The position numbers were made by a program, and so were the translations under genes. This document shows, piece after piece, positions 1 through 26,491 of a stretch of DNA of 32,719 nt (the stretch's first letter is position 1; the number at the start of each line of letters is the position of its first letter). The notes beneath the pieces were generated by a model. That model was not told the DNA's origin. It did no database searches and worked only from the letters and a program-made list of their open reading frames with translations. Source of the stretch: a virus; IMG/VR virus record IMGVR_UViG_3300020731_000055, positions 1-32,719 of that record, one strand, 5' to 3'.

Positions 1-3000
1 CAGCAGCAATTTGATATTCGTAATCAACTGTTTTTGTTATAATAGTATCTTTGCTATATCCAGTTGCATACCAATCTGTATATGACCAATAATTTCTAAC
101 ATCATATGATTGAGCAACAATAATTTGCCATGAAATTTTAGTAGCATCTGCAGGATCTACCATCAATTCTCTGATGGTCCAGCCGCCAGTAACACTGTCA
201 CTTTCAACAATTGCCTTCTGTCCGTTCTTATATAATACACTGTTATAGTAAGAAAGTTCGGTGTCATTTGCAACCATAAGATTTAATGTAATGCCATCAA
301 TTACAGGAATAGGATCATGTGATTGAAATGGAGTTACATCACGTAGTAGTGCCATAGGATATTTTGCAAGTATTGCATTTACATTTTCAACCCAAATTTG
401 TCTTCCTGCAAACTTATCAACAAAAGTTGATTGTCTTGGTATAGTAGACAATCCATACTTTTCCTTAGTAGTTAATGCAGGATCGGGTACTAATCTACCT
501 TGACTATCTTCACCTGACAGGCTGTCATTTAGTCTATCTAGGAATTCTGTTGCAACCCCAAAATCTGTGCCATCATCAAACATACTCCATTCTTGATGTA
601 CAGGATTGACATCACGACTATCAGTTAATGAAATATGCAAGCATGTGTCATTGTTAATAATATCCTGGCAGTTAAACAGTGCCATGGCATTTGTTCCAAT
701 TACAGCAGCAAATGGCTCATTGGAATTTCTTGGATTTGCAATTAGATTTTGAATCTGTAGTGCAGTCATTCCACGACGTGGACTATTGCCATTACTGTTT
801 CGAATCCAAAAATAGTATTTGGTTGAACTAGTAAGAGTTGACGAATCAATAACAACCTTAGATGTATAAACATCACTGACAGTGTAAGTAGGACCTGCAT
901 TTGGATTAGCTTTTGCATACTGACTAGGAGTCAAATCGCTTTCAATCCATTCGTAAACACTAACAAAACTGCTAGGGAATGAAAGACCCCAGTTGTTCAA
1001 TCTATCAAGTACAGTACCTTGATTCCAATCAACATATCTAATACCACTGGTATCCCACCATAGTTCGCCTACGTGTTCAGCGCCCCATGATTTAGTCTGA
1101 CTGACTGAGAAGCTATAGGTATTTGGAACATTAGTATAAGTTGCAGGATCATAGTTTACAATATATCTAATCTGCTCAGGTGTTGTTTCAGTTGGTAATC
1201 CATGTTCTGGATCTATTACTGGTAATTCTGACATCAATATTTTAGTATTATTATTGTAGAGATATACTCTTTCAATTTTTCTAGTATCAACTGCATTTGA
1301 GCTGCTACGAGTTAATGTCCAATTTGGATTACCAGTGGAGTTTTGATAACTGTAAACAGTTCCTGCATTGACATTACTATTCAATGCTGTTATCATTAAC
1401 CAATTTTCACTCATTGCAACACCTGTGCTAAAGAGATCATTTGTCTCTAATGCATCAACTGTTAGTGTTTGTGTGAAAGCAAAGTTACCATGTGACAACA
1501 TAGTTTCGTTTGTGTCGCTTTGGTATTCATATAGATACGCAGCACCTGAACGGTATTTTGCATTGAAGAATGTAGTTGACTTACCATCAAATGTTGTGAA
1601 ACCTAAATCAAAAGTCTTAGTAGTTTGATTTGTGGCAATATTTGATCCAATAATCAACTTATCACCTGTGTTATTAACATATACAGTGCTACCATAATTT
1701 GTAGTAGTTTGACTGTTGTTAGTTGATAACAACTGATATTGACTAAACACAGTAAAGCCTAAATCACTTAACTTATAATATGATGTAGTTGAATTGATGT
1801 TTAGCTTATTGTAGATAATATTACTATTACTCGAAATTGTAATTGTACTGCCAAATGCTGTTGCAGTTACACCTGGGATATTAGCTTTATTAATATCAAG
1901 TGCTGCTTGAGCACTGGTATATCCTGTAAATGTAACCTTAAATCCGTTGATTCTAATACTACTATCAAAATTAAACAGTGGATTTGAGTTATTAGCAACA
2001 ATTGTTCCATATAGTTTACCGGTGTTAACAAAACGGAATACTGCACCATTGGTAGTTGAATAGTTATTATAGCCAGGAGCACCAACATATAGACTGCAAG
2101 TAGTTGGGCATATAACAACACATAATCCAAACTTCAAATTAATTTGTCCGGTAGCATTTGGAATAGCAGGCAATTTCTTTTCTACTAATAGAAAATTATT
2201 AGTTTCAACTGTTACTATACTGCCAGTTTCTAATAGATTAGTAAATTTCAAAGTTGTGCTAACAATAGTATAAGCAAAATTCTCTACACCATCTACATAT
2301 ACACGAGGCATTATAGGAGTATTTTCTAATGTAAATGTTTCGCCTGCTGAACCTACAGAGAAGAAGCTTTCAATTGTACGCTCATAAACATATGCTGCAC
2401 CCATATTTGAATAGCTAATATTATTAATTGTATTAGTTAATGTTGGGGCGCCAATGGCTAACTGACTGCCATCATCAGTGAAATTCATGCTAAAACCAAA
2501 GCTTCCAGCAGCATCTGCACTGGTAAAGTCAGTTGCATAACGATACCAACTTTCATAAGTTATTTCAACGGAGTCAGTTGCACTAGGAGTTGTTAATAAT
2601 GTTACAATGTCATGAGTTAATACTGAAAATATTAAAACATCACCTAATGTATAATCAAGATAAGGAATTAATAGTTTACCGTTAACTCTAACTTTTACAT
2701 CGTTAGCGGTTAGATTTAACCCTTGAGCTGATAATGGAATTGAAAAATTAACTTGAGACTGAGCAACATATGTAGACACCGATGTTGTAACAGTATTATA
2801 TTTGTAAACATAAACTCTATTAGTGCCGGGGGCACCAACAGCAAGCCAATTTCCATCTCTACTTAATGCAACTGCTTTACCAAAGTTAGCAGATGAACTT
2901 ATTCCATTTACACAAATTGCTTGTTTTAAATGTACTGTGCTGCTAGTTGTAGTTCCAATGTAAGCAAGACCAGCATTTGAATTACTGTTAGGAGCACCGA

Positions 3001-6000
3001 TGACCATCAAATCTAGATTATTATATTTTACACAATAACCAAAATTAGCTGCGTGTGAATCTTCAGGAAGAATATTATCTATAACAGCCCATGTTGCATC
3101 ATCATTTTGTTTGTAAACATAAACAGATCCTGAGTTGCTATAATTAGGAGCACCAACAATCATAATGTCTTGGCTGGCTTTAATATCCACACTCATACCA
3201 AAATTGTCAGACGTACTAGAAAAAGCAGGAGTAAGTGATTCAGTGAGTTTCCACTGGTAGCTGTTAGTTAAAACTTCATAGCTGCCATCATCATTATTAA
3301 TCCAGGCCATATCACCTTCTTGCCAATTTGGGTGACTAGTTAGTTGTCTTGCAAAATTTAATTTGCCTGGATAGTCAAGTGCAAATGATCCTTTTGCTGA
3401 TAAGTTTGAACTGGCATTTGAAGAATACTTCACTGATTTTAGTTTAAACATTAATCCGCCAGATGGTTGATTAATATTTCCACTTGCAGCAGTCATATTA
3501 GTATACATCGGAGTTCTAAATGTGTTATCAGTGCCACTGGTAATTCTATAGAAACCTGCTAGTGTTGTCTTAGTATTATTAACAACACCATTCTTGATCA
3601 TGATGATATCTTGATTCGATAAGCCATGTGATACATTTGTTGTGAATTCAATTTCTTTATTGATAATAACAGCAGACATAACACGCAATGCATTATTGTC
3701 CATTGTTAATCTATAAACATTCCAACTATTTGCTGGATCTGCACCGACCCATATTCTACTGCCTTCACCTAAGATAGTGGCAAATCCACTAATATTAGGA
3801 ATTTTAACAATATCAAATACTGTAGTATCAACTTCATTAATTAATACTGGACCAGTCATTCCAATCTGTGCAGGATTTTTTTCTGTTGCTTTGAATATTT
3901 CAGTATCATAAATGGTTGGTTTGATCAATAAATCTTGAGGTTTATAGCTGTTCCATAAAGTAGATTTCTCATCACTGTTGTTGATCAATTCAATGACATA
4001 TGCACCGTTCAATGGAGTTGCATTAGCAAGACTTAATTCAACATCACTTTTTTGTTTTGATCCGCCATAATTACCTAATCTAATAGCCCACTGCTCGTCA
4101 ATAACAACACTGTTGTCAAGATAAGGAAGTTTAACTCGTAGGAAAGCATTTACCGCAGCTTGTGTTCCTTTTTCACGAATCATTCCAAGATAGAACTTAT
4201 GTTGACTGATGTCATCAAGACCAATGTCAGTCATATATTGTCTTGGCACAAATCCTGTAGAATTTCTTGCACTCATATCAGCACTTGCATTAACATCAAA
4301 GTTATCTACATCGTAGAATCCTTCAAATTGCTGTGCATTAAATGCCATATTTGGAATCAATTGCTTGCTCAACAATCTACCGTCAATCTGATACCAATCT
4401 TTGTTGTTAAACTTAGTTGCACCAGGGATAAACTGTCTTGCTGTATAGTATTGATTCTTATGTAATACAACCTCGCCTTTTCTATAATCAGTAATAGGTA
4501 ACCATTGATCAACAGGACGATAGTTTACTAAGAATCCGGGAGCAAATAAACTTCCATCCCACTCGCTAGTTTTAAATCCTCTGATTTTTAATCTATACTG
4601 TCTGTTGCCTAAACTTGGCTCATAGATAACATCATTGAACACTGTAGTATTATCAAATATTAATGTGTGCTCATAAAGAACAACAAACATATCTATTAGA
4701 TGCACACCCTTAGTAGGATCTCTGAACATTAGTTCGAAATTATTACCAGTGCGATATGCGGCATAATCAGTTGCTTGTAAAGTCTTTCCGTCACTGTCAA
4801 TTATTCTTGCATCTGAGAAACCATTTGTGATATCATCTACAATACCAAATTGGCTGGTAAATTTAACATTTGACCCAGTTGGTGTTAAGCTTAATACTGT
4901 TCCATTGTCCCAACCCTGTTCGAGCCAATATAAAAACTCTTTAACAGGCAATACCCAGTCAGTGACTGAATTGCCGTTTTCATCACTGAATTGGAACCCT
5001 TGAGCAGTGAGAAACTTGCCGTAACTTATTATAAAATCAACAACTTGTTGCACACTAGTTAATGAAGTTCCATATGGAATAACATTTACTGTACTTTGAT
5101 TGTCCTGGTATACCAATGCAGAACTGTTGCTTACTTTAATTGTATAGTTGTTATTATTATAATTTCTAGGAATTATAGTAAAGTAAGGACGTTGATTATC
5201 AAAACCATAAACCTTAAATCCATAAGATCCCTTTTGAATTATAATTGCACTGTAAGAGGCAATAGCAATTGGTGCACTTTTTGTCAGCACAACATTATAG
5301 TTTTCTTGAGGAATCAATATGCCGCTATTTGTACTGTTAGGACTTGATTGAGTAGCAGTTATCTGAAGATATTCTTTATCAGTGAAGCTGCTGGTTTTAT
5401 ACAACAGATTTAATTTATAATTGTTAAAAATTTCAATGAAGTTAACAGTGATGTCTAAACCAATATCAGCTAATCTGTCTCTAATCCATATGTTGCTACC
5501 TGGCACATATTGATTATCATCTGACACCAACAGATTAAAAGTTCTTTTTCCTGTAATCTTATTAATGATTTGATTAAGAGAATCAATTCTGACCACATCA
5601 CGACGATTTAAACTTAATGCACTATACTCAGCTGGTCTTGCAAGTGCCCAAGCAATTTGTACTGCGAAAGGATAATCACTTGAACGGCGCCATGCTGTTT
5701 CTTGTGGGCTTTGATCACCAAATTTCCAATCTGCTCCTGCGGTTTGTTCTTTCCAATTAACAACAATAGAACTAATTGGAGGTAATAAGAATCCATGATC
5801 ATCAACTGGGATAATACTAGTTAGTCCAGGTCTTGCATATCTGACATCAACATAACTGTCAATGCCATGTTGATAAACTAGCCCAAGTTCTAAGTCTTTC
5901 CATAAAACTAAGTTACCAGCAGTATAAGGTGCAGGACCATAACGTACTGCCCACCACGATGGCTGTTGACTAAATCCTAACATTTCCCATGGACGTAAGT

Positions 6001-9000
6001 GAGGGCTATCAGTATCATAAAAATACTTGTAAATTCCTCTCCAATATCCTGGAACAGACTCATTGAATAACTTATCAAACCCTGCACTATAATTAAAACT
6101 AAATGCATCATTTTGTACAGTAATAGTATTGTTGAAAACATTTACATTATTGTTTCCTGCCCAATTTAAGTAAGACAAGCTTAATAACTGAGTCCACTCA
6201 TCTATACTATAATCAGTATTCCTAAATGCGCCTGGTTCTATTGTAGTATAACTAGTCTGCATATCATTGGTAAATTCAACTGAAATATTATTGTAGATTC
6301 TTTTTTCAAATTCTAATATAATATCATCTCTGTAGTCACCAAAAGCAATTATTTTACTGCCATCATGGCCTTGAATTACGTTTATTGGATTACCAATGTA
6401 CGTGTCGTCGAGAAATAGTGCAGGAGTAAATTTTGGATACAGGCCTAACTTGGTTGGTGTAGCAGGAATCATGCAACCTTTAGTTGATGCATATTCATAA
6501 ATGCTTACAGTATCATTAATTGCAATTGTTAAATCACTGCTTAGTGTAATAACTGAACCATTATTTGTATAATCACTACCAATTAATAACTGTGTTCCAT
6601 TTAGATACACTAATACTGCTTGATATGTTGGGTTAACAACATCAAATGAATTAATAAGATTAAAGTGTCTATAATTTGTATCATAAACTGGATAATCATT
6701 GCGAATATATTTGTTAATGCCAAATGGCATCATGTCAGTAAAATAGAAAGCTTGATTACTGCTGACGTTGGCTACAATTTCTTCCATAATAATATCAAGA
6801 TTAGCTTGAGCATCTGCAGAATCACCAAATTCCATTGTCTTTAGAAGATAGAAAAATCTATCTTTAAATCTGCTATAAGATTGTCTATTAAAATTTAATG
6901 ATCTAATAATATTAGTACTATCATTATTAAACATTAGCTGTGCTAAATGCACACCTGAACTATGCTGTAGAATCTTTCCGGGAATAACCTTATAATTAAT
7001 GTCTCTGAGATTATTATTGCCAAATGAATTTACAGAATAATCTAAACTATTGTTAGACATTTCAACAAGATGATTTCTTACTTGACCAAGCGTTAAAGTT
7101 TTGAAATTATTATTCTCACTATTATCTACCAGGTTTTTTGGTAATGTAAAGTTTTCTTTAAGATTTAATGTTGTGCCACGAATATTAATTACTAATACAT
7201 CGCCATCTACTAAATCATTTGTCAAATGAATCTGAGATTCTTGACTATTACCCAACAAAGTAAAATCAACAGTGTCTGTTAAAGCAACATTATTCACATA
7301 AACAAAAATGTTCTTTTCATTAAAACTATTTTGATAAACAATGTCTATAGTAAAGTCATTGACTTTATATTTTGTTGCGGTGAACTTTCTTTGAATAAAT
7401 TGTTTGCTAGGATCAGCAATTCTGGTCCAATTATTTCTTAGACGAATACTTGAGCTTGCAGGAACAAGTTCATGAGCAAATCCGCTGTTGATATCAACAG
7501 TAAAGTCGGCATCGTTTAAGCTATAATTAAAAGTATCTACGTCATAGAAATTTTGAAATAATATGTCGCCAATATTTCCAATGGATTTATAGCTTAGTGC
7601 AAATCCTAATTCTGTATCTCTAGTTCCATTTGCATTTTCTAAATAACCAAATAAAGCAGATCCTGCAAAATTTGTACTGGGATAATATGTTTGATCGCCA
7701 AAGCTATTTCCATTGATGTCAAATATATCAAATAAAGGATTTTGATTCAAACTAAATTTCTGTTGGGCAACTTGCCAATTTCCATCATGCCACCAATAGC
7801 TAACATTCTGTCTACTTACTCCACTAATAGCAACAACACTATCGCCTTCCTGCATTGTATGCACAGGCATCAAATGTACTTGTGCAACATTAGATCTGAA
7901 AGTTAATACAGTGCTGGTTGCAATATCATTTGAAATTTCATTATTGAAAGTAACGATGTTATACGAAGTATCAATTGCTGTTATCACTGTGTTTGCAGGG
8001 ATATTAGTTCCTGTTACTGCCATATTAACCAAAAGATTAGCTATGTTATTAACTTTTACTTGTGTGCTGTTAATGGGGGTGAAAGTAACAGTTGTCTTAT
8101 TAAGAGTTGTGTCAGTATATGGATTAATATTTTGTACAAGATATATTTTGTTCTTAGTATTTTCATACTTCTCTGCGGTGAAGATAACATAAGTTCCATC
8201 TTCTAATGCAACATTGTCACTATAATAATTTCCAGTTGAATCAATTAATGCATATGGACTATGGCCTTCAACTTGATTACCAATATCAGTAACTTCAGTA
8301 TCGATTACCGTTACTGATTGCACATAATTTGTCCCATGATCCCAAAGTCTAAGATTGCAATCAAATTCAACAATTGGTCTGATAGCTCTGTAACTGTTAT
8401 CCAACACAACTGTTTCAGATGCGTTTAAGAAAGTATCAGCATATCTAATAACATCTTCATGAAACCAACGGTTAGTACGACTCCATGCATTTCCGTCAGT
8501 GCTTGCACGATTAATAACAATATAATCTTTACGTAATGGAGCATTTAAGCTTAGATCATAGTTTAGACTGTCATACGGCTCTGACGAAGAATCAAAACCA
8601 GAACCTTGATTTGGATTATTTGGATCAGGTGTAACTAAACTAGCATACGGAACCAACTGAATACCAACACCAACACCTTCAACAATATATTCGTTGTTTA
8701 GATAAGTTGCTGGATCAACTGAATTAGTAAACTTAACTTTTAATCCATTGGTAAACTTAACTCCATTTGGACTATTATAATTTGCCTTACCAACAACATC
8801 ACTGATTTTAATAGTACCCTGTGTACCTTGCTCAACAATTCTAATCTCACCAAATGCATTTGGATCTATACCATCTTGATAATATAGTACATCAAGATTG
8901 GCAGTAATGTTAGGCAGCTTGTTAATGTTGTTTAATGTGTCTTTAAAAATATATAAGTGTCCAAATTCAACACCTTCATTGACAAATATTTTAGTGTTAG

Positions 9001-10057
9001 AAGGCCAATCTTTAATATATGAAAGTACAATTATGCCATTAACATTGCTGATCTGCCAGATACCACGACGTTGGTTGGTGGGAATATCTCCCCATTGGTC
9101 ATCTTGATTATTTGTTAAAACAATAGTCTTAGATAAGAATTGATGATTGCCATCAATCGAATTTGTCAGCGTGAAATCTGCATAATTAGCACCCTGTAAC
9201 TGACTGTATGGTAAGTCAGTTACTTGATCTACTGTATCAAAAGTAGTCATGTTTTCATAAAAATCTTGATCATCAACTTTAGGTACATTGAAAATAATGT
9301 TGCCAGATACAGCGCCGTTATTAGTAACTCCATAAATGTTTCGTGTACTAATGTTATTTTGAAAAGCAGCAGCTCCTTGAATACCAGGAGCTGTTTGAAT
9401 ATAGAAAGGATGTCCAGGCTGACCTACATTAAATGTATAATTGCCGCCTCTTACTAACGTGATTACAGGATTTATACTTCCAGGAAATCTATCAATACTA
9501 TATCCAACTTGCCCAACATTTTGATTAATCAATGTTTCAGAAAGTATGTCAGTTGCATTTGGGCGCGACACTGTGAATGTTTCTATTAATGGCAAACCAC
9601 CACTGTTTACTTCAAGTGTAGTTGGACCATTTGGCAGCCAATAATATCTACTATAATTAATCAACTTATCAAGATCGACAAATCCTTCATAATTATAATA
9701 TTCATTAGCAAACAAGCGACTATGATCATTAGTGATACCACCGCCAAGTGTGATTGCATTTAGCAAATCTACATAATTGAAAGCATTATCCACTTTAAAA
9801 TTATTAGTGTTAAACACTCTCTTGTTAATAACAAGACCAGGTTCAAGTTGATAAAATTGACTGTAGCTGTCTGTCTCTTGAACATAAGCATCGCCTTTTT
9901 GAAAAGCAGGACTGAGATCCTGACGACCTACATATCCATAGAGCCTGTCAAGATTAGGCTCCTGCAATAATTGATCCATCGTCGCATTCAAAAATCTACG
10001 ATTTGTATTACTCTGAAAAACTTTAGGAAGAAAGTCTAAGGATTTTTTATCAACCAT
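1..10057 (-). CDS. Giant baseplate/tail structural protein, partial (C-terminus outside window)
   Basis: One reading frame stays open from ATG at 10057 to the left edge, so at least 3352 codons are present and the C-terminus is missing. I checked the frame for stops over most of its length and found none. It begins MVDKKSLDFLPKVFQSNTNR, 20 bases after the gp6 stop and behind an AGGATAGG-type ribosome site. It occupies the place of T4 gp7 (about 1030 residues), so it is probably a wedge-periphery or fibre-network protein. Around residues 1330-1420 it carries an aromatic segment (YKYFYDTDSP, then PWEMLGF) that I associate with large structural proteins of marine T4-like phages. Several small beta modules of the type VYLNGTQLLIGSDYT recur near residues 920, 1150, 2430 and 2560. 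Residues about 2279-2906 hold seven FG-GAP-like repeats, listed separately. The existence of the gene is certain; its exact role is inferred from position. Confidence 0.9.
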   Translation of the reverse strand, partial: MVDKKSLDFLPKVFQSNTNRRFLNATMDQLLQEPNLDRLYGYVGRQDLSPAFQKGDAYVQETDSYSQFYQLEPGLVINKRVFNTNNFKVDNAFNYVDLLNAITLGGGITNDHSRLFANEYYNYEGFVDLDKLINYSRYYWLPNGPTTLEVNSGGLPLIETFTVSRPNATDILSETLINQNVGQVGYSIDRFPGSINPVITLVRGGNYTFNVGQPGHPFYIQTAPGIQGAAAFQNNISTRNIYGVTNNGAVSGNIIFNVPKVDDQDFYENMTTFDTVDQVTDLPYSQLQGANYADFTLTNSIDGNHQFLSKTIVLTNNQDDQWGDIPTNQRRGIWQISNVNGIIVLSYIKDWPSNTKIFVNEGVEFGHLYIFKDTLNNINKLPNITANLDVLYYQDGIDPNAFGEIRIVEQGTQGTIKISDVVGKANYNSPNGVKFTNGLKVKFTNSVDPATYLNNEYIVEGVGVGIQLVPYASLVTPDPNNPNQGSGFDSSSEPYDSLNYDLSLNAPLRKDYIVINRASTDGNAWSRTNRWFHEDVIRYADTFLNASETVVLDNSYRAIRPIVEFDCNLRLWDHGTNYVQSVTVIDTEVTDIGNQVEGHSPYALIDSTGNYYSDNVALEDGTYVIFTAEKYENTKNKIYLVQNINPYTDTTLNKTTVTFTPINSTQVKVNNIANLLVNMAVTGTNIPANTVITAIDTSYNIVTFNNEISNDIATSTVLTFRSNVAQVHLMPVHTMQEGDSVVAISGVSRQNVSYWWHDGNWQVAQQKFSLNQNPLFDIFDINGNSFGDQTYYPSTNFAGSALFGYLENANGTRDTELGFALSYKSIGNIGDILFQNFYDVDTFNYSLNDADFTVDINSGFAHELVPASSSIRLRNNWTRIADPSKQFIQRKFTATKYKVNDFTIDIVYQNSFNEKNIFVYVNNVALTDTVDFTLLGNSQESQIHLTNDLVDGDVLVINIRGTTLNLKENFTLPKNLVDNSENNNFKTLTLGQVRNHLVEMSNNSLDYSVNSFGNNNLRDINYKVIPGKILQHSSGVHLAQLMFNNDSTNIIRSLNFNRQSYSRFKDRFFYLLKTMEFGDSADAQANLDIIMEEIVANVSSNQAFYFTDMMPFGINKYIRNDYPVYDTNYRHFNLINSFDVVNPTYQAVLVYLNGTQLLIGSDYTNNGSVITLSSDLTIAINDTVSIYEYASTKGCMIPATPTKLGLYPKFTPALFLDDTYIGNPINVIQGHDGSKIIAFGDYRDDIILEFEKRIYNNISVEFTNDMQTSYTTIEPGAFRNTDYSIDEWTQLLSLSYLNWAGNNNVNVFNNTITVQNDAFSFNYSAGFDKLFNESVPGYWRGIYKYFYDTDSPHLRPWEMLGFSQQPSWWAVRYGPAPYTAGNLVLWKDLELGLVYQHGIDSYVDVRYARPGLTSIIPVDDHGFLLPPISSIVVNWKEQTAGADWKFGDQSPQETAWRRSSDYPFAVQIAWALARPAEYSALSLNRRDVVRIDSLNQIINKITGKRTFNLLVSDDNQYVPGSNIWIRDRLADIGLDITVNFIEIFNNYKLNLLYKTSSFTDKEYLQITATQSSPNSTNSGILIPQENYNVVLTKSAPIAIASYSAIIIQKGSYGFKVYGFDNQRPYFTIIPRNYNNNNYTIKVSNSSALVYQDNQSTVNVIPYGTSLTSVQQVVDFIISYGKFLTAQGFQFSDENGNSVTDWVLPVKEFLYWLEQGWDNGTVLSLTPTGSNVKFTSQFGIVDDITNGFSDARIIDSDGKTLQATDYAAYRTGNNFELMFRDPTKGVHLIDMFVVLYEHTLIFDNTTVFNDVIYEPSLGNRQYRLKIRGFKTSEWDGSLFAPGFLVNYRPVDQWLPITDYRKGEVVLHKNQYYTARQFIPGATKFNNKDWYQIDGRLLSKQLIPNMAFNAQQFEGFYDVDNFDVNASADMSARNSTGFVPRQYMTDIGLDDISQHKFYLGMIREKGTQAAVNAFLRVKLPYLDNSVVIDEQWAIRLGNYGGSKQKSDVELSLANATPLNGAYVIELINNSDEKSTLWNSYKPQDLLIKPTIYDTEIFKATEKNPAQIGMTGPVLINEVDTTVFDIVKIPNISGFATILGEGSRIWVGADPANSWNVYRLTMDNNALRVMSAVIINKEIEFTTNVSHGLSNQDIIMIKNGVVNNTKTTLAGFYRITSGTDNTFRTPMYTNMTAASGNINQPSGGLMFKLKSVKYSSNASSNLSAKGSFALDYPGKLNFARQLTSHPNWQEGDMAWINNDDGSYEVLTNSYQWKLTESLTPAFSSTSDNFGMSVDIKASQDIMIVGAPNYSNSGSVYVYKQNDDATWAVIDNILPEDSHAANFGYCVKYNNLDLMVIGAPNSNSNAGLAYIGTTTSSTVHLKQAICVNGISSSANFGKAVALSRDGNWLAVGAPGTNRVYVYKYNTVTTSVSTYVAQSQVNFSIPLSAQGLNLTANDVKVRVNGKLLIPYLDYTLGDVLIFSVLTHDIVTLLTTPSATDSVEITYESWYRYATDFTSADAAGSFGFSMNFTDDGSQLAIGAPTLTNTINNISYSNMGAAYVYERTIESFFSVGSAGETFTLENTPIMPRVYVDGVENFAYTIVSTTLKFTNLLETGSIVTVETNNFLLVEKKLPAIPNATGQINLKFGLCVVICPTTCSLYVGAPGYNNYSTTNGAVFRFVNTGKLYGTIVANNSNPLFNFDSSIRINGFKVTFTGYTSAQAALDINKANIPGVTATAFGSTITISSNSNIIYNKLNINSTTSYYKLSDLGFTVFSQYQLLSTNNSQTTTNYGSTVYVNNTGDKLIIGSNIATNQTTKTFDLGFTTFDGKSTTFFNAKYRSGAAYLYEYQSDTNETMLSHGNFAFTQTLTVDALETNDLFSTGVAMSENWLMITALNSNVNAGTVYSYQNSTGNPNWTLTRSSSNAVDTRKIERVYLYNNNTKILMSELPVIDPEHGLPTETTPEQIRYIVNYDPATYTNVPNTYSFSVSQTKSWGAEHVGELWWDTSGIRYVDWNQGTVLDRLNNWGLSFPSSFVSVYEWIESDLTPSQYAKANPNAGPTYTVSDVYTSKVVIDSSTLTSSTKYYFWIRNSNGNSPRRGMTALQIQNLIANPRNSNEPFAAVIGTNAMALFNCQDIINNDTCLHISLTDSRDVNPVHQEWSMFDDGTDFGVATEFLDRLNDSLSGEDSQGRLVPDPALTTKEKYGLSTIPRQSTFVDKFAGRQIWVENVNAILAKYPMALLRDVTPFQSHDPIPVIDGITLNLMVANDTELSYYNSVLYKNGQKAIVESDSVTGGWTIRELMVDPADATKISWQIIVAQSYDVRNYWSYTDWYATGYSKDTIITKTVDYEYQIAA
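1340..3222 (-). other. Seven FG-GAP-like repeats (predicted beta-propeller domain) inside the giant protein
   Basis: Seven repeats run N to C in decreasing coordinates. Each has an FG or similar turn, a hydrophobic strand ending in GAP or a variant, and a strand such as YVYK. The GAP-type cores lie near 3146-3154 (IMIVGAPNYS), 2990-2998 (MVIGAPNSNS), 2828-2836 (LAVGAPGTN), 2444-2452 (LAIGAPTLTN), 2075-2083 (LYVGAPGYNN), 1640-1648 (LIIGSNIATN) and 1382-1390 (LMITALNSN). Seven such repeats is the number found in integrin-alpha-type propellers. Repeats 1-3 are tightly spaced. Repeats 4-6 are separated by inserted small beta modules, and 6 and 7 have lost the exact GAP sequence. The fold is inferred; the repeats are directly visible. 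Confidence 0.75.
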
Positions 10058-10077: not shown

Positions 10078-13000
10078 TTATATCTGACTTGCGTTTATAG
10101 TACCGACACCACTTTGATTTATTCCAACATATACGCCACTTACGACTTGCACGTTATCTGCTGTTGCTGCACTAATTAATATTTCATTTGGTTGACTACG
10201 AATTTCATATAGGTTACCAAATTTACTGTTAGGGCTAGTGGGAATTAAAATTACGCTACTTAAGAAAGTCCCTAATTTAGTATGCAAATATGCAGACAAT
10301 TCACTGAAGTAAAATGTTTGTCCAAAATCCCAATTTTCTAAATTAAAATAGTTGTTGATTTGCTCAACTAGCATACTTTTTAATTCATTGTCACTGATTA
10401 CAGTATTTGGATTTTTTACAATTTGAAAAGTTGCTTGAAGAGATTGATCAGCTTTCTTACCAAACAATGGCTTATAACTACCTGAATTTAAAATCATTTC
10501 ATCACTGATCATCTTCAATGTCATTAACTGTGCATAAGTGTTGTTTAATGTTACACTGTCTAAAACAGCCGGTTCTGTTAAAGTTCCTGTGAAATCAGTA
10601 ATGTAATTTCTATAGGCTTCATCATAGCTGCGTGTCAAGATGTAAGTGTCAATTAAGTTACTGGCAGCAGGATCAATTCTTCTGCTGTCGCTGGCATTGT
10701 GACGATACTGGAATATCAAATCTTGTCTTCCAGTAAAAGCAAGATAGTTTGTGCTGACATCAACAAGTGTATTAGCAACGCCATTATTAACAATCTGATA
10801 AAACAACTGATCAGTTGTTGCGTAGAATAATCTGCCAGCTGGAAAATTATTTCTAACATTGTCAATTGCTACTTTAGTTGGGTAACTATAATTCACAGTG
10901 CCACTATCTAATAATTGAAATCTAATTAAATTATCATAATCTACATACTGCTGATAGAAAACATAAGTGTTTACTGCAACTGCCGACGAGAAAATATTTG
11001 GATCCAGTGGTAAACTACCAGTTGACCCAGTTGGGAAAGTTACTTGAACTTTAGTACTGTCGATATATCCATCTGCTTCGATACCATTCTTGTATATTTC
11101 AAGTGTTATTACTCTTGGTAATTTACTTGTTCCAGCAGTGTTTAAATTGGTCTGCAATAACTTTATATTGTCTTTAATGATAGTATTAGTTCTGCTATCA
11201 TAAACAGGAGTAGGATTAGTGTTTAAAAATCTAACACTATTTGTACTGCTGAAAATATAATCTAATCCTCTGTACTTTACAGTGTATTCAATTCCGTTAG
11301 TATTGAATAGTAATACCCAACTGCTGTCATTTGACACCCCTGCATTATTCAGTGAAAATGCACTTGTAGAATCTACATTACTAATAGGAATTATTTTCCA
11401 CGGATCACCAGTAACAGTGTTAGTATAATCATATCTTAAAGCAAATTCTATGTTGTTTAACACATAAGTTGTTATAGTATTGATTAGTAGATTACTAAAA
11501 GAAGTTGTATAAGGTGCATAAATTTCAGTGATTACTGCACCAGTGGGAATACTTTCACTGATAGTTACTGCACCTATAGATCTGCCTGCTAGATAAATTG
11601 GGGTGCTACCGTCGCCAATTTGGCTGTTGATAGTTGCCCAAATTTCTGTTTTGTCGTTGGGTAAAGATGGTGTGCCCAGTATCAAACTGTTGCTGCTATC
11701 AAAATAATATCCAATTGGCGCAGAGAATTTAATTAAACTACCCATTAACAAATACCTCAATGTAGTTGAAGTAAATGCACCAATCGGGGAATAAGTTGTT
11801 GCTCCACCCTCAAAGAAAAATCCAGTTGAGGTATTAGTATCGTCAGTTTGTCTTTGCCAATATGTATTAGTTGGAAAAAATTTAGGATAATTTTGATAAT
11901 AAAAATGAATATTACTCTTACTAGCAATAATTGGTTGTACTTCACCAAAGATAGTTTTCAAAACATCATTACGGCTGCTAAAAGTAAATTTAATTGTGTT
12001 TAAAGTTTCATTTTTGTAGAAACTGCCATCACTGCCAAACAAATCAGTTGAGCTGTATTTTCCAGTTGGATCAATAATATCAAGATATCGACTAATGCCG
12101 CTGCTATAACGGTTTACTGATTTTACTTTTACAATGTCAGCATATGTGGTATAAGGAACAATATTATAATCCTCACCATTTACCATACGACCTTGACTGT
12201 AGAAATTTTGCGGAGCTTTGTCTTTAATTTCTTGGATAAGATCACGACGACTGCTATTAGCAACAGTATATTGCAAGCTTGCAGTAACAGTTAATTTTTG
12301 AGGACTGCCATCTTTAGCAACGTATGGAATCACAACTGTAATGCCAGACATGTCTGCAGGACTAATACGATAAGTTAAGCCATTACTAACTCTGAAAAAG
12401 CTTCTAAAATTTCCGATTGGAATGTCAGAAAATGTATCGTCACCAAACACAAGATCAATTTGATCATTGGCGCGAGTATTAACACTATAAAGTGTTCTGA
12501 TACCTCTTGCGGTACTATTATAGATTGCGTTGCTACCTGAGATTGACGGTACTTTTGTCCACTGTGTTGATAGATTTCCTGTGGTGTCTATTTCATAAAG
12601 CCAAATATCTTCATTGTTGACGTTGTCAAGATTTATTCCAAGTAGTCTATTAGGAATTTTATCTGTTAAAGCAAAATCTATTGCGTTAATAGAACCCTGT
12701 TTAAAATAAACAAAGTATCCTGAATTATTACTGCTGTTACCAAGACCATCATTTTGATACACAATACCAAATGCTCCCACTATTCCAGGATCTTGTTCAG
12801 TAATTGCATTTGAATTAGTGATACTTGCACTTAATAGTTCAAATGGAAATGTTGTATCATTTACAACAGAATTAAAAGGAAATACAGGAGGACTTACTGT
12901 AGTAGGCACTGCAATATTGTATTGCTCAGTTTTAATGTTGTTAATTGTCTTACTAGCAAAAGGCTTACCAATACGCTGACCTGGACTTAATGCGGCATTC

Positions 13001-13479
13001 ATAACAATACTAAACTGACTAGCCCAGTCTGGATTAGTTGAGTCATTCCATACGATAGAAGTACGTGATAAGTTTTTACTGCTGAAATCAAATATTGTTT
13101 CAGTTGTACTAATGCTTTGAATCTTTAGTAAACCATTAGCAGCTTTATTTCTATTTGGAACATAATTTAATTGTTTTACAAGCTTTAGTACTGAATCTTT
13201 ACGTTCAGCAGTTTCAAGAAAGTTTTCTCTTGCATTTAAATCAGTACGAAATGCAAGACTCTGAGCTTGGAAAGCAATAAGATCAATTAGAGCAATAAAT
13301 TCACTTGATTCGATAAAGTCGTTATAATCCTCAGCATAATATGTGCGAAGATAATCAACCATAACCTTACGAATTGATTCAAAGTCATATGATTGAAAGT
13401 CTGCTTCACTGAAAGTTGTGTAAAGCTTTTTCCAATCTTCAACTGCAAATAAGTTTGTTTGTCTGTTATTAATTGCCAT
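10078..13479 (-). CDS. gp6: Baseplate wedge protein gp6
   Basis: This 1133-residue protein starts MAINNRQTNLFAVEDWKKLY. Its first 120 residues (dense in YLRTYY, FIALIDLIAFQAQSLAFRTD and ENFLETAERKDSVLKLVKQL) are typical of T4 gp6, which forms the inner ring of baseplate wedges and changes shape during sheath contraction. A later segment near residues 430-460 (GRMVNGEDYNIVPYTTYADI) and a C-terminal part ending about 60 residues after SELSAYLHTKLGTFLSSVIL also fit the gp6/baseplate J-like family. It is clearly longer than T4 gp6 (660 residues), the extra length lying in the middle. It follows gp25 by 50 bases, a gap that holds its own late-promoter candidate, and precedes the giant gene by 20 bases. 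The order gp25 then gp6 supports the call. Confidence 0.9.
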   Translation of the reverse strand: MAINNRQTNLFAVEDWKKLYTTFSEADFQSYDFESIRKVMVDYLRTYYAEDYNDFIESSEFIALIDLIAFQAQSLAFRTDLNARENFLETAERKDSVLKLVKQLNYVPNRNKAANGLLKIQSISTTETIFDFSSKNLSRTSIVWNDSTNPDWASQFSIVMNAALSPGQRIGKPFASKTINNIKTEQYNIAVPTTVSPPVFPFNSVVNDTTFPFELLSASITNSNAITEQDPGIVGAFGIVYQNDGLGNSSNNSGYFVYFKQGSINAIDFALTDKIPNRLLGINLDNVNNEDIWLYEIDTTGNLSTQWTKVPSISGSNAIYNSTARGIRTLYSVNTRANDQIDLVFGDDTFSDIPIGNFRSFFRVSNGLTYRISPADMSGITVVIPYVAKDGSPQKLTVTASLQYTVANSSRRDLIQEIKDKAPQNFYSQGRMVNGEDYNIVPYTTYADIVKVKSVNRYSSGISRYLDIIDPTGKYSSTDLFGSDGSFYKNETLNTIKFTFSSRNDVLKTIFGEVQPIIASKSNIHFYYQNYPKFFPTNTYWQRQTDDTNTSTGFFFEGGATTYSPIGAFTSTTLRYLLMGSLIKFSAPIGYYFDSSNSLILGTPSLPNDKTEIWATINSQIGDGSTPIYLAGRSIGAVTISESIPTGAVITEIYAPYTTSFSNLLINTITTYVLNNIEFALRYDYTNTVTGDPWKIIPISNVDSTSAFSLNNAGVSNDSSWVLLFNTNGIEYTVKYRGLDYIFSSTNSVRFLNTNPTPVYDSRTNTIIKDNIKLLQTNLNTAGTSKLPRVITLEIYKNGIEADGYIDSTKVQVTFPTGSTGSLPLDPNIFSSAVAVNTYVFYQQYVDYDNLIRFQLLDSGTVNYSYPTKVAIDNVRNNFPAGRLFYATTDQLFYQIVNNGVANTLVDVSTNYLAFTGRQDLIFQYRHNASDSRRIDPAASNLIDTYILTRSYDEAYRNYITDFTGTLTEPAVLDSVTLNNTYAQLMTLKMISDEMILNSGSYKPLFGKKADQSLQATFQIVKNPNTVISDNELKSMLVEQINNYFNLENWDFGQTFYFSELSAYLHTKLGTFLSSVILIPTSPNSKFGNLYEIRSQPNEILISAATADNVQVVSGVYVGINQSGVGTINASQI

Positions 13480-13529: not shown

Positions 13530-13967
13530 TTAGTAACCGACAGTAGAATTAACAACACCAGTGGTGCCATCAAATGCAAGATTTAAGCTCACCAGTTCAT
13601 TTGTACTTTTTATAACAATTTGAGCGTCTAATAATATAGCTGTGCCGGTTGAATCTTGTGTGACCGCAACTTGTTTTAATACTGAGATTCTAGGATCCCC
13701 GTTAATAATATCAGTTATGTCATTTACAATGGCATTCTTCAATGTTGGCGTAAGTGGATCAAATAGTCTATCCCAAATTAAACAACCATAGTTGGGATTC
13801 ATTAATTTCTCACCCTTACGAATATTAAAATGGTTAATGAGATCCATTATAATAATGTTCTTGTCTGTCAATGAATAAGGACCAAAGTCATTGTCCTGCA
13901 ATCCAGTGATAACAGTTGAACTATCATAATTAAAACTTTTTGTACTAAAACCTTTGTAGATTGCCAT
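13530..13967 (-). CDS. gp25: Baseplate wedge protein gp25 (gpW/gp25 family)
   Basis: This 145-residue protein is close to T4 gp25 (132 residues). Diagnostic stretches are NDFGPYSLTDKNIIIMDLIN near residue 26 and the block RKGEKLMNPNYGCLIWDRLF near residues 50-70, where the MNPNYG and IWDRLFDPLTP motifs are the family hallmark. This fold is shared by contractile phages and type VI secretion baseplates, where it joins the wedge to the inner tube/sheath start. The start codon follows AAGGTAAATAACTGACC; the preceding gene ends 15 bases upstream. It sits directly before gp6 as in other T4-like genomes. Confidence 0.9.
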   Translation of the reverse strand: MAIYKGFSTKSFNYDSSTVITGLQDNDFGPYSLTDKNIIIMDLINHFNIRKGEKLMNPNYGCLIWDRLFDPLTPTLKNAIVNDITDIINGDPRISVLKQVAVTQDSTGTAILLDAQIVIKSTNELVSLNLAFDGTTGVVNSTVGY

Positions 13968-13982
13968 GGTCAGTTATTTACC

Positions 13983-16316
13983 TTAACATCCACCACCACC
14001 GCCGCCCGCGCCACTTGATCCAGCTGCTGCTGCACCACCTGGAGAACTTGGATTCGACGATCCAGCTACGCTACTATCTGTTGAATTAGCAGTATCAACT
14101 GATGGAGATGAACTACCAGCTGATGTTGTGTTATTACTTGATGTATTAGCAGATATACTAAATTGATTAACAGATTGATCCGAATAACCCGCTGATCCTA
14201 TAAATGGCTGACTAATTGATCCAGGACCCGATTGATCTAAACTTTCTATCATACTACCATTTGGTGTAATTTGCGGCAATACAGCAGCTCCATTTACTTG
14301 TGAAGTGCCAGTAAAGTCTAACCCATTTGTAGGATAAGAAAGATTATTGTAATTATTAGTGTTTGTATTAACTACATCATAGCCAACTGACTGCCCATTA
14401 GCATCAACTTGTGAAGAAGGTACATAACTTACCCCATCAGGTAAAGGCTGTGCTTGCTGTACATTAACAGGAATTGGAACATTTTGATTATTATAATATC
14501 CTATAACTTGTCCTGCCTGATTAAATTGAGGGAACCCAGGTGCAACTGTATTTCCAAAATTTGTCTGTGTATTCTGAGGTCCATAGCTGGTATCAACAGC
14601 AATAGGAGGAGAATTAACATTGGATGGAGCAGCAGGACTAATAGTGGCAGTAACTTGTTCATACCCTATTACTGATCCACTACCCGCAGGATCATATATC
14701 GGAACAAGCGTAGCTGCTTGAGTTGACTGAGTTGCTTGCTGACTAGTAGTTTGCACAGACGTATCTGTTACAAATCCACTTGGTGTAATTGTAACAGCAG
14801 GTGCTGATGGAGTAGTTTGAAAATCCAATAGATATTGCTGATACGTCGGTGCATTTGGATTCGAAGCAGCTTGAGTTTCATATGTTGATAAGTCAAGCGG
14901 AGTTGCAGCTTGAGTAAAAGACCCAGTTGGCACAATTGTAGCAGATCCTGGAATCAGTGGCACATTTGACATAGGCACAGCAACTTGCCCAACATCAGGT
15001 TTTGTAGCGTCAAGTGAAGTAGTTGATGCAGGAATAAAAGTTTCTGCAGATGTTGGGGCAGATTGTTGTATTAATCCGCCATTACTGTTAATCGTAAAAA
15101 AACTACCTGTTACAGGGATTGGTACTTGCCCAGCATTACCAATCGATGCTGCGGTTAAATCTGTGCCTGCAACTACTTTTCCTGACAGGTCAACTGATCT
15201 AATTGTATTGTCAGACGCTGTAAAAGTATATCCTAAAGTATTATTATTTGTGTCTTTTATTGTTGTTACAGTGCTATTAACAGGTAATCCAACTGTAGCA
15301 GCAGTAGGAGCAAAATCTGAAGATATAGTAATGGGAGTGGCATTAGTACTGACAGGTAATGCAATAGTTTGAATATCGCTAGACGGTCCTCCAGAAGGAC
15401 TAATTGTTGGTGCAACTGTTGCTATTTCGTTATCAGCTGAATCGTAAATTGTTCCTGTTTGAATATTTTGATAATAAACTAATCCATTGTTTCCTGTAAT
15501 TTCTCTATATGCTCCTGTACCATCACTGGATACAAAATATGGATCAGTAACTGTATATTTTGCTCCTTGAAATGGAAGATTATTATACAAAGCATCATAT
15601 GTAGCGCCAGTGATAGTTGTACCTGCAGGAATTATGCCAGTGGTATTAACAACAGCGCCACTGGCATCTGTAAATGAGCCATCTGCTTGTTTTATTAACG
15701 TGTCACCAGTTTTAGGATTTGTATATGCTGTTGTTCCATTTGCATTAATTACTTGTGCTGTGAATCCATTAGCTGATGGATTAAAACTATTCGTAGTTGC
15801 AGCAGTCTTTGCAGCATTAACAACTGGTGTTGTACTAGCTCCAAATATAGTATCTTTAACTGTTTGAATTGCATTGCTGATTGGTGTTGTTATACTTGAT
15901 ATAGCAGATGAGATAGAATTAGGCAATGTTATTGTTGGCAGTGGTCCCAATGCTGTGCCAGCACTGATATAACCACTAACATTAACAGAAGTTATACTAC
16001 CTCCCCCAGTACTAACAGCAGTGGATGCAGGACTTACAAATCCAGAAGTTCCACTATTATTTTCAATACCCAGCTGAGTGGGATTTAATTCTTTATCTAA
16101 TGTTCCAGGATCAATGCCTATACCTTTAGCAATGCCTTTAACGTATTGATCATAACTGTAGTTGTCTCTGCCTTGTTCAGCAGTAGTGATCGCAATGGCC
16201 ATAGTAAGTTTAGTCATTGGATCGTTAACATCAATTTGTTGATTTGGATCTAACCCAAACTTAGTAACAACTTTAGTTAGGAAATTTATATAAGCGGGAT
16301 CTGTTTTTGTTACCAT
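13983..16316 (-). CDS. Low-complexity virion protein carrying the second half of a hydrolase-like domain
   Basis: 777 residues. The first 50 or so (DPAYINFLTKVVTKFGLDPN, then DVNDPMTKLTMAIAITTAEQ) resemble the C-terminal half of the phage muralytic-type domain that in other proteins starts with NNPGN. The matching N-terminal half ends the gp5-like gene just upstream. The rest is rich in Ser, Thr, Gly, Asn, Ala and Pro, with loose repeats of the type GxxxGY (NTLGYTF, GSVIGYEQV, GQVIGYYNN, GQSVGYDVV) that suggest an extended or beta-rich stalk. It ends in a run of glycines followed by a single terminal Cys. Its ATG overlaps the upstream TAA (TAATG) with AAAGGGA nine bases before, so translation is probably coupled. 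Its position between gp5 and gp25 makes it a tail-tip or baseplate component; no T4 counterpart is recognised. Confidence 0.75.
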   Translation of the reverse strand: MVTKTDPAYINFLTKVVTKFGLDPNQQIDVNDPMTKLTMAIAITTAEQGRDNYSYDQYVKGIAKGIGIDPGTLDKELNPTQLGIENNSGTSGFVSPASTAVSTGGGSITSVNVSGYISAGTALGPLPTITLPNSISSAISSITTPISNAIQTVKDTIFGASTTPVVNAAKTAATTNSFNPSANGFTAQVINANGTTAYTNPKTGDTLIKQADGSFTDASGAVVNTTGIIPAGTTITGATYDALYNNLPFQGAKYTVTDPYFVSSDGTGAYREITGNNGLVYYQNIQTGTIYDSADNEIATVAPTISPSGGPSSDIQTIALPVSTNATPITISSDFAPTAATVGLPVNSTVTTIKDTNNNTLGYTFTASDNTIRSVDLSGKVVAGTDLTAASIGNAGQVPIPVTGSFFTINSNGGLIQQSAPTSAETFIPASTTSLDATKPDVGQVAVPMSNVPLIPGSATIVPTGSFTQAATPLDLSTYETQAASNPNAPTYQQYLLDFQTTPSAPAVTITPSGFVTDTSVQTTSQQATQSTQAATLVPIYDPAGSGSVIGYEQVTATISPAAPSNVNSPPIAVDTSYGPQNTQTNFGNTVAPGFPQFNQAGQVIGYYNNQNVPIPVNVQQAQPLPDGVSYVPSSQVDANGQSVGYDVVNTNTNNYNNLSYPTNGLDFTGTSQVNGAAVLPQITPNGSMIESLDQSGPGSISQPFIGSAGYSDQSVNQFSISANTSSNNTTSAGSSSPSVDTANSTDSSVAGSSNPSSPGGAAAAGSSGAGGGGGGC

Positions 16317-16515
16317 TATTTTATATTCCCTTTACGATCCATATATCCTTGGATGAAGTCTGCAACAGTCATAGCACCATCACTTTGTATTATGTCTAAA
16401 GCAACACCCAATGCTGCAATACCATCTTCGGGAGTTGAATATAAGTTCAATCCATTGGTTTGTCCAATTGCAAATGGATCTTCTAATAATCCATTTAAAT
16501 CGCCGGGATTGTTTT
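16168..16515 (-). other. Muralytic-type domain split over two genes
   Basis: The last 67 residues of the gp5-like protein contain NNPGDLN, then IGQTNGLNLYSTPEDGIAAL, then MTVADFIQGYM. This is the order seen in the N-terminal half of phage lysozyme/transglycosylase-like virion domains (NNPGNI, GQ, F-x-S/T-P-x-x-GI-x-AL, TI-x-x-II). The next gene opens with the remaining half (AYI-x-x-V, G-x-x-P, D-x-x-DP, AI-x-x-x-E-x-G). The two halves are in different frames, joined by a TAATG overlap. Motif matching was by eye. Confidence 0.6.
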
Positions 16516-18154
16516 GTTTTTCGCCTTGTGTTAAATCAGGAACTGTTGCCAACTTGGCATTAGTTACATCAACAGCAAAGCCGCTAGTTGCAAGTGGTAA
16601 GCTAATACTTGTATTTGTAAACAATACGGAATTTTGATCAAATTGATTTAATCCTGCTGTTGCACCTTGATCAGCAGCTTGTCCTGCCATACTAGCCTGT
16701 AAGCCTGTATTAAATTTAATAGGTCCATTGGCATTTGTATATGCTCCATAGTAGTTGGGATTATTAGGAGTAGCACCAAAACTTGCAGCAGCTCCATAAT
16801 TACCCGACGCACCTGCAGGAACACCACTGGCTGCGGCATAGCTAGTACTAGACACAGGACTGTTTGTTCTACTGCTAATATGCTGATATGGTTCGTGACT
16901 GGGACCTTGTACTTTTAATGGAATATTTGGCATACTGGGAAGACTGGGAGTTGGCAAACTTGTATTAAGTGTAACGCATCCGCCTTTAATATCAGTATGC
17001 ATCAACCCCGAGATACTTACGCAAGTTAACGCACTAGCACTAACTGATAACCCTGACAGGCTAATTGCTCCAGCAGTTGCACCTAAACTGACACCCATGG
17101 TGCCTTTAACACCAACATTCATACCACCAATACTAACAGATGATTGGGCACTAAGATTAATAGAACCAGCACTTACCACAAAGCTGCCTGGCGTATCAAA
17201 TTGAAACCCGCCGGTTGCATGTGCTTGCACTTGTCCTTGACTAAACATTTTAATGTTGCCCTGAGCATCCATTTCAAACCATGCAGTGCCGGTGCTATTA
17301 ATCATATAGATAATGCCTGCACTATCATTCATTAATAACATATTGCCGTTACTAGTTCGCAATCTTATTAATTGATTGTTGCCATTGACATCACCATCAT
17401 CCATAACAAACTGATGACCGCCTTGACGTGCTGTTATTCTTAAATCTACATATTGATCATCACCTGTACTAGCAGTAGCAGGAGGAGCAACTTCAGGCCC
17501 TGGTGTACTAATACCAAATACTCTGCTGGGAGTTTCTCTAAATGCACTGCTTGTCCCTGGACCTCTAAAAGGATCTTGTGTTAGTCCTTGTCTTGCCCAA
17601 ATTTGATTTTGATAATCATGTATTGTTGTAGCACGATTATAGAAAGTTGATGTAGACGAACTTGATGCACTAACATTTGCATCATTATATTCAACTACAG
17701 GCTCAGGTCCGCCTCCGTGCCAGCTTGCATTGCTAATACCAGGAACCATGTGTAGATTTGGAAAATCCGGAATACATCCAAACCAATATCCTTTGAAAGG
17801 ATCACCATTAATGAATGTGCATATAACCTTAACGTCAATATCAGGAGGCACAAACCACATGCCGTAACTGTGTGGGCTATCAGTAAATGTTTGATCTTGT
17901 CCTCTTGCTGAGGAAGGAGTAACTCCGTAAAATGGAGTACAATATTGTACAGTTCTCCAGCTGGCAGAATCTGCAGGATCGCCGCCTAGTTCTGGAATCC
18001 AAACTTGTAGTCTGCCAGAACGCATTGTATCTAGATTATTTTTAACCATGCCGATATATGGACCAGGACTAATTCTAACACCAGGAGCACTTTCGTGTAC
18101 AGTATGCTTAGGTGCTTTTGAAGTTGTTGTACTTGAACCAGTTATTGCTGCCAT
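16316..18154 (-). CDS. gp5: gp5-like baseplate hub / central spike protein
   Basis: 612 residues. Residues about 25-75 (PGVRISPGPYIGMVKNNLDT followed by GRLQVWIPELGGDP) are the OB-fold of gp5/VgrG-type spikes. Residues about 240-270 (GHQFVMDDGD) and the following repeats (NMLLMND, AWFEMDAQGNIKMFSQ, INLSAQSSVSIGG) have the alternating pattern of the triple-stranded beta-helix needle. The internal lysozyme domain of T4 gp5 is not seen. Instead the C-terminus (residues 546-612) is half of another hydrolase-like domain that continues in the next gene. A Ser/Ala/Gly/Asn-rich linker lies between. The start follows AAGGAAATATAA, 10 bases after the upstream hub gene. Expected role: trimeric membrane-piercing spike at the baseplate centre. 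Confidence 0.85.
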   Translation of the reverse strand: MAAITGSSTTTSKAPKHTVHESAPGVRISPGPYIGMVKNNLDTMRSGRLQVWIPELGGDPADSASWRTVQYCTPFYGVTPSSARGQDQTFTDSPHSYGMWFVPPDIDVKVICTFINGDPFKGYWFGCIPDFPNLHMVPGISNASWHGGGPEPVVEYNDANVSASSSSTSTFYNRATTIHDYQNQIWARQGLTQDPFRGPGTSSAFRETPSRVFGISTPGPEVAPPATASTGDDQYVDLRITARQGGHQFVMDDGDVNGNNQLIRLRTSNGNMLLMNDSAGIIYMINSTGTAWFEMDAQGNIKMFSQGQVQAHATGGFQFDTPGSFVVSAGSINLSAQSSVSIGGMNVGVKGTMGVSLGATAGAISLSGLSVSASALTCVSISGLMHTDIKGGCVTLNTSLPTPSLPSMPNIPLKVQGPSHEPYQHISSRTNSPVSSTSYAAASGVPAGASGNYGAAASFGATPNNPNYYGAYTNANGPIKFNTGLQASMAGQAADQGATAGLNQFDQNSVLFTNTSISLPLATSGFAVDVTNAKLATVPDLTQGEKQNNPGDLNGLLEDPFAIGQTNGLNLYSTPEDGIAALGVALDIIQSDGAMTVADFIQGYMDRKGNIK

Positions 18155-20115: not shown

Positions 20116-20424
20116 TTACCCTAAGTTAGCTAATATTGTTGAAAGTTTAGGAATGTATATAAATTTATCTTCAGTGAAATCCCAAATTGGGTCAACAAGT
20201 ATATCCCTGTTTCTCAGAATAAACACCCACCAAAACTCTACCGTACCATAAAGATCATAACTCATTAAATCAGGACGACGATGGTATGTTGCAGTTATCT
20301 GTTTGTAAACATCATCTGCTTGAGGAGGTATAGTTCTATAATCTAATATATCTAAAAATTTACCATCAAATAACCCAGTGGTACTATAAGGGCTAGATGA
20401 TTTATATGAAACAGGCCCTGCCAT
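20116..20424 (-). CDS. gp53: Baseplate wedge protein gp53
   Basis: 102 residues from MAGPVSYKSSSPYSTTG. The core RRPDLMSYDLYGTVEFWWVF followed by ILVDPIWDF and FIYIPKLSTIL is the gp53/LysM-like pattern (RPDLISY-x-x-YG-x-x-x-x-WW) of T4-type wedges. I prefer this start over one three codons upstream. The stop of gp48 and this ATG share an A (TAATG), and a GGAGG lies nine bases upstream, whereas the upstream ATG would sit directly against that GGAGG. gp53 helps join wedges to the hub. The hub gene follows four bases after its stop. Confidence 0.82.
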   Translation of the reverse strand: MAGPVSYKSSSPYSTTGLFDGKFLDILDYRTIPPQADDVYKQITATYHRRPDLMSYDLYGTVEFWWVFILRNRDILVDPIWDFTEDKFIYIPKLSTILANLG

Positions 20425-26456: not shown

Positions 26457-26491
26457 TATTGGTAAATACAATTATCAATATAGGATTTTTT

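Follow-up and report, generated by a model that had tools for sequence, protein, structure and literature searches.

A predicted integrin-type seven-bladed propeller in a variable slot of a giant phage baseplate protein

The stretch of DNA analyzed here, hereafter the window, comprises the full 32,719 bases of IMG/VR virus record IMGVR_UViG_3300020731_000055, from an uncultured virus of bacteria. On its minus strand, a reading frame that starts at 10057 and is still open at the window edge encodes a giant baseplate-region protein, hereafter the carrier; because the frame remains open there, the C terminus of the carrier lies outside the view. Within the carrier is a module predicted to fold as an integrin-type propeller, three blades of which have an insert in the hairpin between their strands C and D. 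The carrier, the module and its parts, the latter placed by DSSP secondary-structure assignment of the model and by alignment A3, are as follows.

2..10057, minus strand: giant baseplate-region protein, at least 3352 amino acids, reading frame open at the window edge; phrog_10938
1310..3259, minus strand: integrin-type seven-bladed beta-propeller module, residues about 2267-2916
3071..3202, minus strand: blade 1, from its FG strand
2915..3043, minus strand: blade 2
2795..2884, minus strand: blade 3, strands A-C (strand D at 2522-2548)
2549..2794, minus strand: insert 1, C-D hairpin of blade 3, akin to insert 2 and to the XD2-like domain of the core
2360..2500, minus strand: blade 4, strands A-C (strand D at 2174-2218)
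2219..2359, minus strand: insert 2, C-D hairpin of blade 4, XD2-like
2024..2131, minus strand: blade 5, strands A-C (strand D at 1724-1747)
1748..2023, minus strand: insert 3, C-D hairpin of blade 5, unrelated to inserts 1 and 2 in profile comparison
1463..1696, minus strand: blade 6, with a long B-C loop and GSN in place of GAP
1304..1432, minus strand: blade 7, degenerate in the window copy

The fold was modeled with AlphaFold2 from A3, an alignment of 58 phage sequences from which 13 near-copy, overlong or weak propeller rows had been omitted (58 retained, with L033 dropped afterwards); A4 drew on 69 of the 76 listed loci. The model is a closed seven-bladed propeller with a predicted local distance difference test score of 90.6 and a predicted template modeling score of 0.92. 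A Foldseek search against the PDB placed integrin headpieces on top (expectation value [E]=5.4e-12), and VIA-align superposed model residues 19-668 on the integrin alpha-M/beta-2 headpiece (7p2d_A) with Z 38.9 at 2.6 Å over 351 residues. Searched by sequence alone, the A3 profile picks up integrin alpha subunits: alpha-4 (E=8.7e-13), alpha-M, alpha-6 and alpha-IIb. Among viral models, the best match was an uncultured Caudovirales phage protein (E=2.3e-35), followed by many giant-virus proteins, some of them named FG-GAP. The prediction that the module is an integrin-type, seven-bladed propeller is strongly supported, and the closed ring of the model agrees with a preliminary description of this DNA, which had proposed such a propeller from its repeats.

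That description counted seven FG-GAP repeats at 1340-3222. The region is right, with boundaries off frame by 1-2 bases (in frame, 1342-3223, residues 2279-2905), and all seven repeats are present, their FG-type glycines falling at residues 2287, 2340, 2393, 2521, 2644, 2789 and 2879. Pfam FG-GAP_2 (PF14312) scored 65.1 bits on the propeller stretch (cut-off 23; E=6.5e-18), well over its threshold and never with fewer than four repeats: with the threshold relaxed to E≤10, it matched 5 stretches in the propeller region and 4 in the whole-protein scan. The older FG-GAP model, PF01839, reached 13.3 bits, under its cut-off of 22.1. Successive glycines are 53, 53, 128, 123, 145 and 90 residues apart in the window, close to the family medians in A3 (54, 56, 122, 123, 145.5 and 91); the spacings of 128, 123 and 145 bear out the proposal that inserted modules spread repeats 4-6, and the described degeneracy of repeats 6 and 7 is seen in the window copy, where GSN and TAL replace GAP. 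A profile built from the verbatim repeats of four members (E<0.05) matched 105/105 other propeller relatives, with 1-7 hits each, mostly 4-6. It matched none of 42 propeller-less relatives at the corresponding position and none of 150 shuffled sequences of that position.

Like the N-terminal propeller of integrin alpha, the phage module has seven FG-GAP blades in a closed ring (Z 36-39 and 2.5-2.9 Å over 345-369 residues among the matches listed). Integrin alpha binds cations through D-x-D/N-x-D/N-G-x-x-D loops. The phage propeller, unlike that of integrins, is without them: the pattern D.[DN].[DN]G..D occurs in 0/58 aligned members and the shorter D.[DN].DG in 2/58. With the cation loops gone, any binding would have to work without the metal dependence seen in integrins. 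The phage module further differs in having extra domains in the C-D hairpins of blades 3-5, within a virus scaffold. This C-D placement derives from the order of DSSP strands and from gaps in the MAFFT alignment, not from coordinates. In propellers of this kind, one face carries the A-B and C-D loops and the other the B-C and D-A loops; the integrin alpha-I domain is located between blades 2 and 3. Since the C-D loops and the D-A and B-C loops occupy opposite faces, the hairpin inserts should project from the face opposite that of the alpha-I domain.

The propeller lies between two blocks of the carrier that are conserved among its relatives, and we refer to the stretch between these blocks as the slot.

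3998..6490, minus strand: conserved core, residues 1190-2020, common to RaK2-like and other jumbo phages
6485..6715, minus strand: XD2-like domain within the conserved core, residues about 1115-1191, from the AlphaFold2 model of residues 1100-2025
4376..4519, minus strand: small chitin-binding-type (CBM5/12-like) domain ahead of the slot, residues about 1847-1894
338..1342, minus strand: conserved C-block past the slot, residues about 2906-3240

Core and C-block are colinear across relatives, and the intervening stretch varies. Among 150 distinct relatives spanning both blocks, 108 match the propeller profile at E<1e-10 and the other 42, which include all 8 cultured phages, lack any repeat, with no intermediates; at most 57 of the 108 calls were rows in the calling profile. 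Repeat counts for propeller relatives outside that profile cover 52 rows; one of these is the window, whose value of 0 means that it was left unsearched. An earlier count, with near-copies still included, gave a propeller in 71/87. By scan, the propeller was present in 56/64 distinct contigs when the search was centered on the core of the window, in 16/40 new relatives when it was centered on a Vibrio jumbo phage, and in 28/30 new relatives in a third core scan; these three scans took the best 80 matches each, and their frequencies describe samples near the query rather than the whole collection. Scans using the propeller itself as query gave 6/6 and 2/2.

Fewer than 310 amino acids separate the two blocks in 22 of the 42 propeller-less relatives. 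Two relatives (L060 and L064) present an empty site, in which the ...WAVYTY strand runs directly into ...TRQQS..VDI, and L076, a relative of theirs, has a full propeller between identical flanks. The propeller is a discrete, removable module in a variable slot, and sequence and prediction together show it seated, in the modeled anatomy, in a small beta hairpin of the giant scaffold protein. On core trees of 80 and of 151 rows (FastTree, unrooted), propeller presence needs 4 changes each. Those on the 80-row tree are the split from the cultured clade, L063, the L060/L064 pair, and the clade with GDSL and YHYH domains; three of them fall inside a propeller-rich clade. As the trees are unrooted, the deepest change can be read in either direction.

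Other sequences occupy the slot in propeller-less relatives. A YHYH domain (PF14240, E 8e-31 and 4e-29) stands at the place of the propeller in L049:2639-4237 and L058:5973-8252, and a GDSL/SGNH esterase (PF13472) is found in the slot of L077:11287-13464, L086:3894-5414, L087:12479-14671 and L234:11494-13914, which form one clade on the tree. Ten of 11 other long propeller-less slots were scanned with Pfam (L115 omitted): one, L234, had its GDSL domain, two gave hits below the cut-off, and seven had no hit at E≤0.01. The rhizobial jumbo phages Atu_ph07 and Phosso have a slot of about 1540 residues with no Pfam family above cut-off (L007:14443-19170 and L008:15277-20049). A LamG-like appearance of the SCTP-2 slot was noticed by eye only; Pfam returned 0 families, and the assignment is not claimed.

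Rates of change differ along the protein, with the blades evolving faster than the regions on either side. In 169 pairs with core identities of 50-60%, mean identity was 53.4% in the core, 35.0% in the blades and 48.6% in the C-block; the inserts of 145 pairs of the same core-identity class averaged 32.6%.

Among known systems, the giant virion proteins of RaK2-like, PA5oct-like and Atu_ph07-like phages (phrog_10938) share with the carrier the gene order past gp6, the core and the C-block. They differ from it in that the slot was without a propeller in 8/8 examined. Annotated phages yielded no close propeller homologue at E≤0.001 and weak ones at E≤10. With tblastn, the blades aligned weakly (E 0.009-0.3) to FG-GAP proteins of S-TIM5, S-TIM61, S-TIM66, Vibrio nt-1, S-SCSM2R and Phosso; unlike the propeller described here, they are encoded by free-standing or fibre-cluster genes, outside the baseplate scaffold. 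The FG-GAP-like protein of Synechococcus phage S-SCSM2R (L107:4660-8769), for example, is annotated as TolB and lies within a tail-fibre gene cluster.

Assignment of the carrier to the baseplate draws on its neighbors and its relatives. The neighboring baseplate genes are as follows.

10078..13479, minus strand: gp6-like baseplate wedge subunit (phrog_10646, E=9e-286)
13530..13967, minus strand: gp25-like baseplate wedge subunit
16316..18154, minus strand: gp5-like baseplate hub and tail lysozyme (phrog_13211, E=6.1e-31)
20116..20433, minus strand: gp53-like baseplate wedge subunit (phrog_7145, E=5.8e-20)

The carrier gene adjoins the gp6-like gene in this gp53/gp5/gp25/gp6 block, which is the gp7 position of T4, where gp7 comes next after gp6, and in cultured jumbo phages the gene for the same giant protein likewise comes after gp6. 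The carrier matches phrog_10938, a virion structural protein family of PHROG, at E=3.7e-268 (best stretch residues 913-1844, over the core), and the PA5oct relative (gp355) is annotated as a virion protein with a mass-spectrometry note. From gene order and from relatives annotated as virion proteins, the identification of the carrier as a phage baseplate protein is supported. T4 gp7, gp6, gp8, gp10 and gp5, compared as single sequences with the carrier profile, showed no homology; because homology to T4 gp7 was not found, "gp7-like" is a statement of gene order only. The core profile (A2) had 0 matches among PDB sequences, and the AlphaFold2 fold of residues 1100-2025 had none in the PDB at E≤0.001 and no clear whole-fold match. 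In VIA-align, just two small domains of those residues were recognized, with the T4 baseplate (5iv5_B) among the rows over one small domain; that gp7 is missing from these PDB fold lists is no evidence of the carrier differing from gp7.

In a Pfam scan of the carrier at E≤10, FG-GAP_2 was the sole family, with no integrin thigh or calf domains, membrane anchor or beta-subunit partner. The window copy of the CBM5/12-like domain likewise gives no Pfam hit; its structural match is to the Milano baseplate (8fqc_P1; Z 8.5, 1.0 Å over 45 residues). CBM_5_12 chitin-binding-type modules occur in the same giant protein of L001:3200-17194 and L003:3791-16420, the latter slightly below cut-off. Elsewhere in the window, a 777-amino-acid Ser/Thr/Asn/Pro-rich protein without PHROG or Pfam match is encoded at 13983-16316, between the gp25-like and gp5-like genes. 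An SbcD/SbcC-like gene pair (Metallophos, 22538-23566; AAA_23/SMC_N, 24650-26422) is followed by a reading frame for a SegE-type GIY-YIG homing endonuclease (26459-27325; PF19835, E=5.7e-35).

The preliminary description had offered two roles for the propeller, a receptor-contact platform or a docking site for fibres. Gain and loss, fast change and the esterase and YHYH domains favor an adsorption module, and the XD2-like inserts favor docking. We give a probability of roughly 0.5 to the reading that the propeller is an accessory, exchangeable, surface-exposed adsorption module that would touch the host directly. Surface exposure and a role in adsorption are suggested because relatives do without the propeller and other lineages place an esterase or YHYH domain there, and the chitin-binding-type domain upstream of the slot was counted in favor as well. 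Published work describes phage tail proteins that act on host polysaccharide through SGNH or deacetylase activity. As a mechanism, we propose that the closed ring would form a rigid disc and that its loops and C-D hairpin domains would make contact with the host surface near the baseplate as the tail descends. The ligand on that surface would probably be glycans, and host-driven selection could alter, decorate, lose or swap the module.

The strongest alternative is that the propeller, together with its XD2-like inserts, serves as a mount on the baseplate for a tail fibre, a spike or a gp10-like protein, so that the docked fibre, and not the propeller, touches the host. Its model systems are T4 gp10 and CBA120 TSP4, whose XD2 and XD3 domains hold their partners; PMC8825819 states that XD2/XD3 domains take part in protein-protein interactions. 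In hhalign comparisons, insert 1 and insert 2 match one another with a probability of 96.5 and match the XD2-like core domain with 93.8 and 95.2, with control domains at ≤15. The core domain matches TSP4 (7rfv) in VIA-align with Z 8.8 at 1.8 Å over 64 residues, and insert 2 compared with TSP4 residues 207-244 gives a probability of 54.5. On these comparisons, inserts 1 and 2 and the core domain appear to share the XD2 jellyroll type of TSP4; they differ from the TSP4 and gp10 domains in being mounted in propeller hairpins where inserts are concerned, and their docking role is putative. All three inserts are present in 43/58 aligned members, which also suits docking, but 10/58 have insert-free propellers, and insert 1 compared with TSP4 gives a probability of only 3.1. 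XD-type jellyrolls are, moreover, common across many tail proteins, XD docking operates on trimers and the giant protein may occur in another copy number, and losing the propeller would also lose a fibre. Because of the loss, replacement and fast change of the module and the ten members with bare propellers, we favor direct contact and regard docking as a serious but rather unlikely explanation.

Least favored of the three functional readings is a spacer, in which the propeller merely stiffens or widens the baseplate periphery without a specific ligand. The propeller does sit inside a large scaffold, and in five relatives (L007, L008, L109, L113 and L160) the slot is taken up by long sequences in which Pfam reports no domain above cut-off; against this stand the slots of fewer than 310 amino acids in 22/150 relatives and the catalytic-type domains in the slot of others, and we consider such a role improbable. 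A chance run of repeats, or a repeat fold other than the integrin-type propeller, could appeal to the detection by Pfam of only 4-5 of the 7 repeats and to the sub-threshold PF01839 score, but is scarcely credible against the AlphaFold2 model, the Foldseek and VIA-align integrin matches, the profile link to integrin alpha-4 and the absence of repeat hits in all 150 shuffled slots.

Several points weigh against direct host contact. The apparent XD2-like character of two of the three inserts argues for docking of virion proteins. Since none of the 8 cultured relatives examined has the propeller in its slot, no laboratory phage backs an adsorption role. Within the slot, YHYH alone takes the insertion point of the propeller itself, because the GDSL domain sits farther upstream. 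The rate difference is reversed in some pairs: L069/L074, for example, share 82% identity in the blades, 75% in the core and 66% in the C-block, and L021/L024 share 76% in the blades and 70% in the core. Exchange of the propeller module may lie behind such cases. Faster change of the blades thus does not hold throughout, and any peripheral domain would be expected to show it.

The fold itself is already known, as are annotated FG-GAP proteins in phages. In the literature searched, with most subscription journals and all preprints outside its scope, there was no account of a propeller in the baseplate scaffold, of the behavior of the slot or of the hairpin domains, and passages of PMC6102473 and PMC10253068 have nothing on the fold of this giant protein. 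Most annotations of this very large virion protein say only "virion structural" or "hypothetical protein"; the model supplies a predicted fold for one part of it. Integrin-type propellers are adhesion devices in animals, where human integrins hold their ligands with this fold, and are present in many viral proteins of unassigned role; here, the propeller is fixed at a defined place of a giant baseplate protein, and natural relatives with an empty or replaced slot allow comparison. Overall, the propeller-bearing baseplate protein makes a good candidate component of the viral host-contact machinery. At somewhat less than even odds, we tentatively suggest that many uncultured jumbo-type phages would keep a receptor-binding slot within the baseplate scaffold and not on a separate fibre; an integrin-type head in that slot would read the host surface with its blades and hairpin domains and would in other lineages be swapped for an esterase or YHYH domain. 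The system makes it testable whether large phages keep host-recognition modules in the baseplate scaffold itself. If they do so here, phages would be putting the adhesion fold of integrins to the same purpose, with additional domains on the face opposite that used by integrins.

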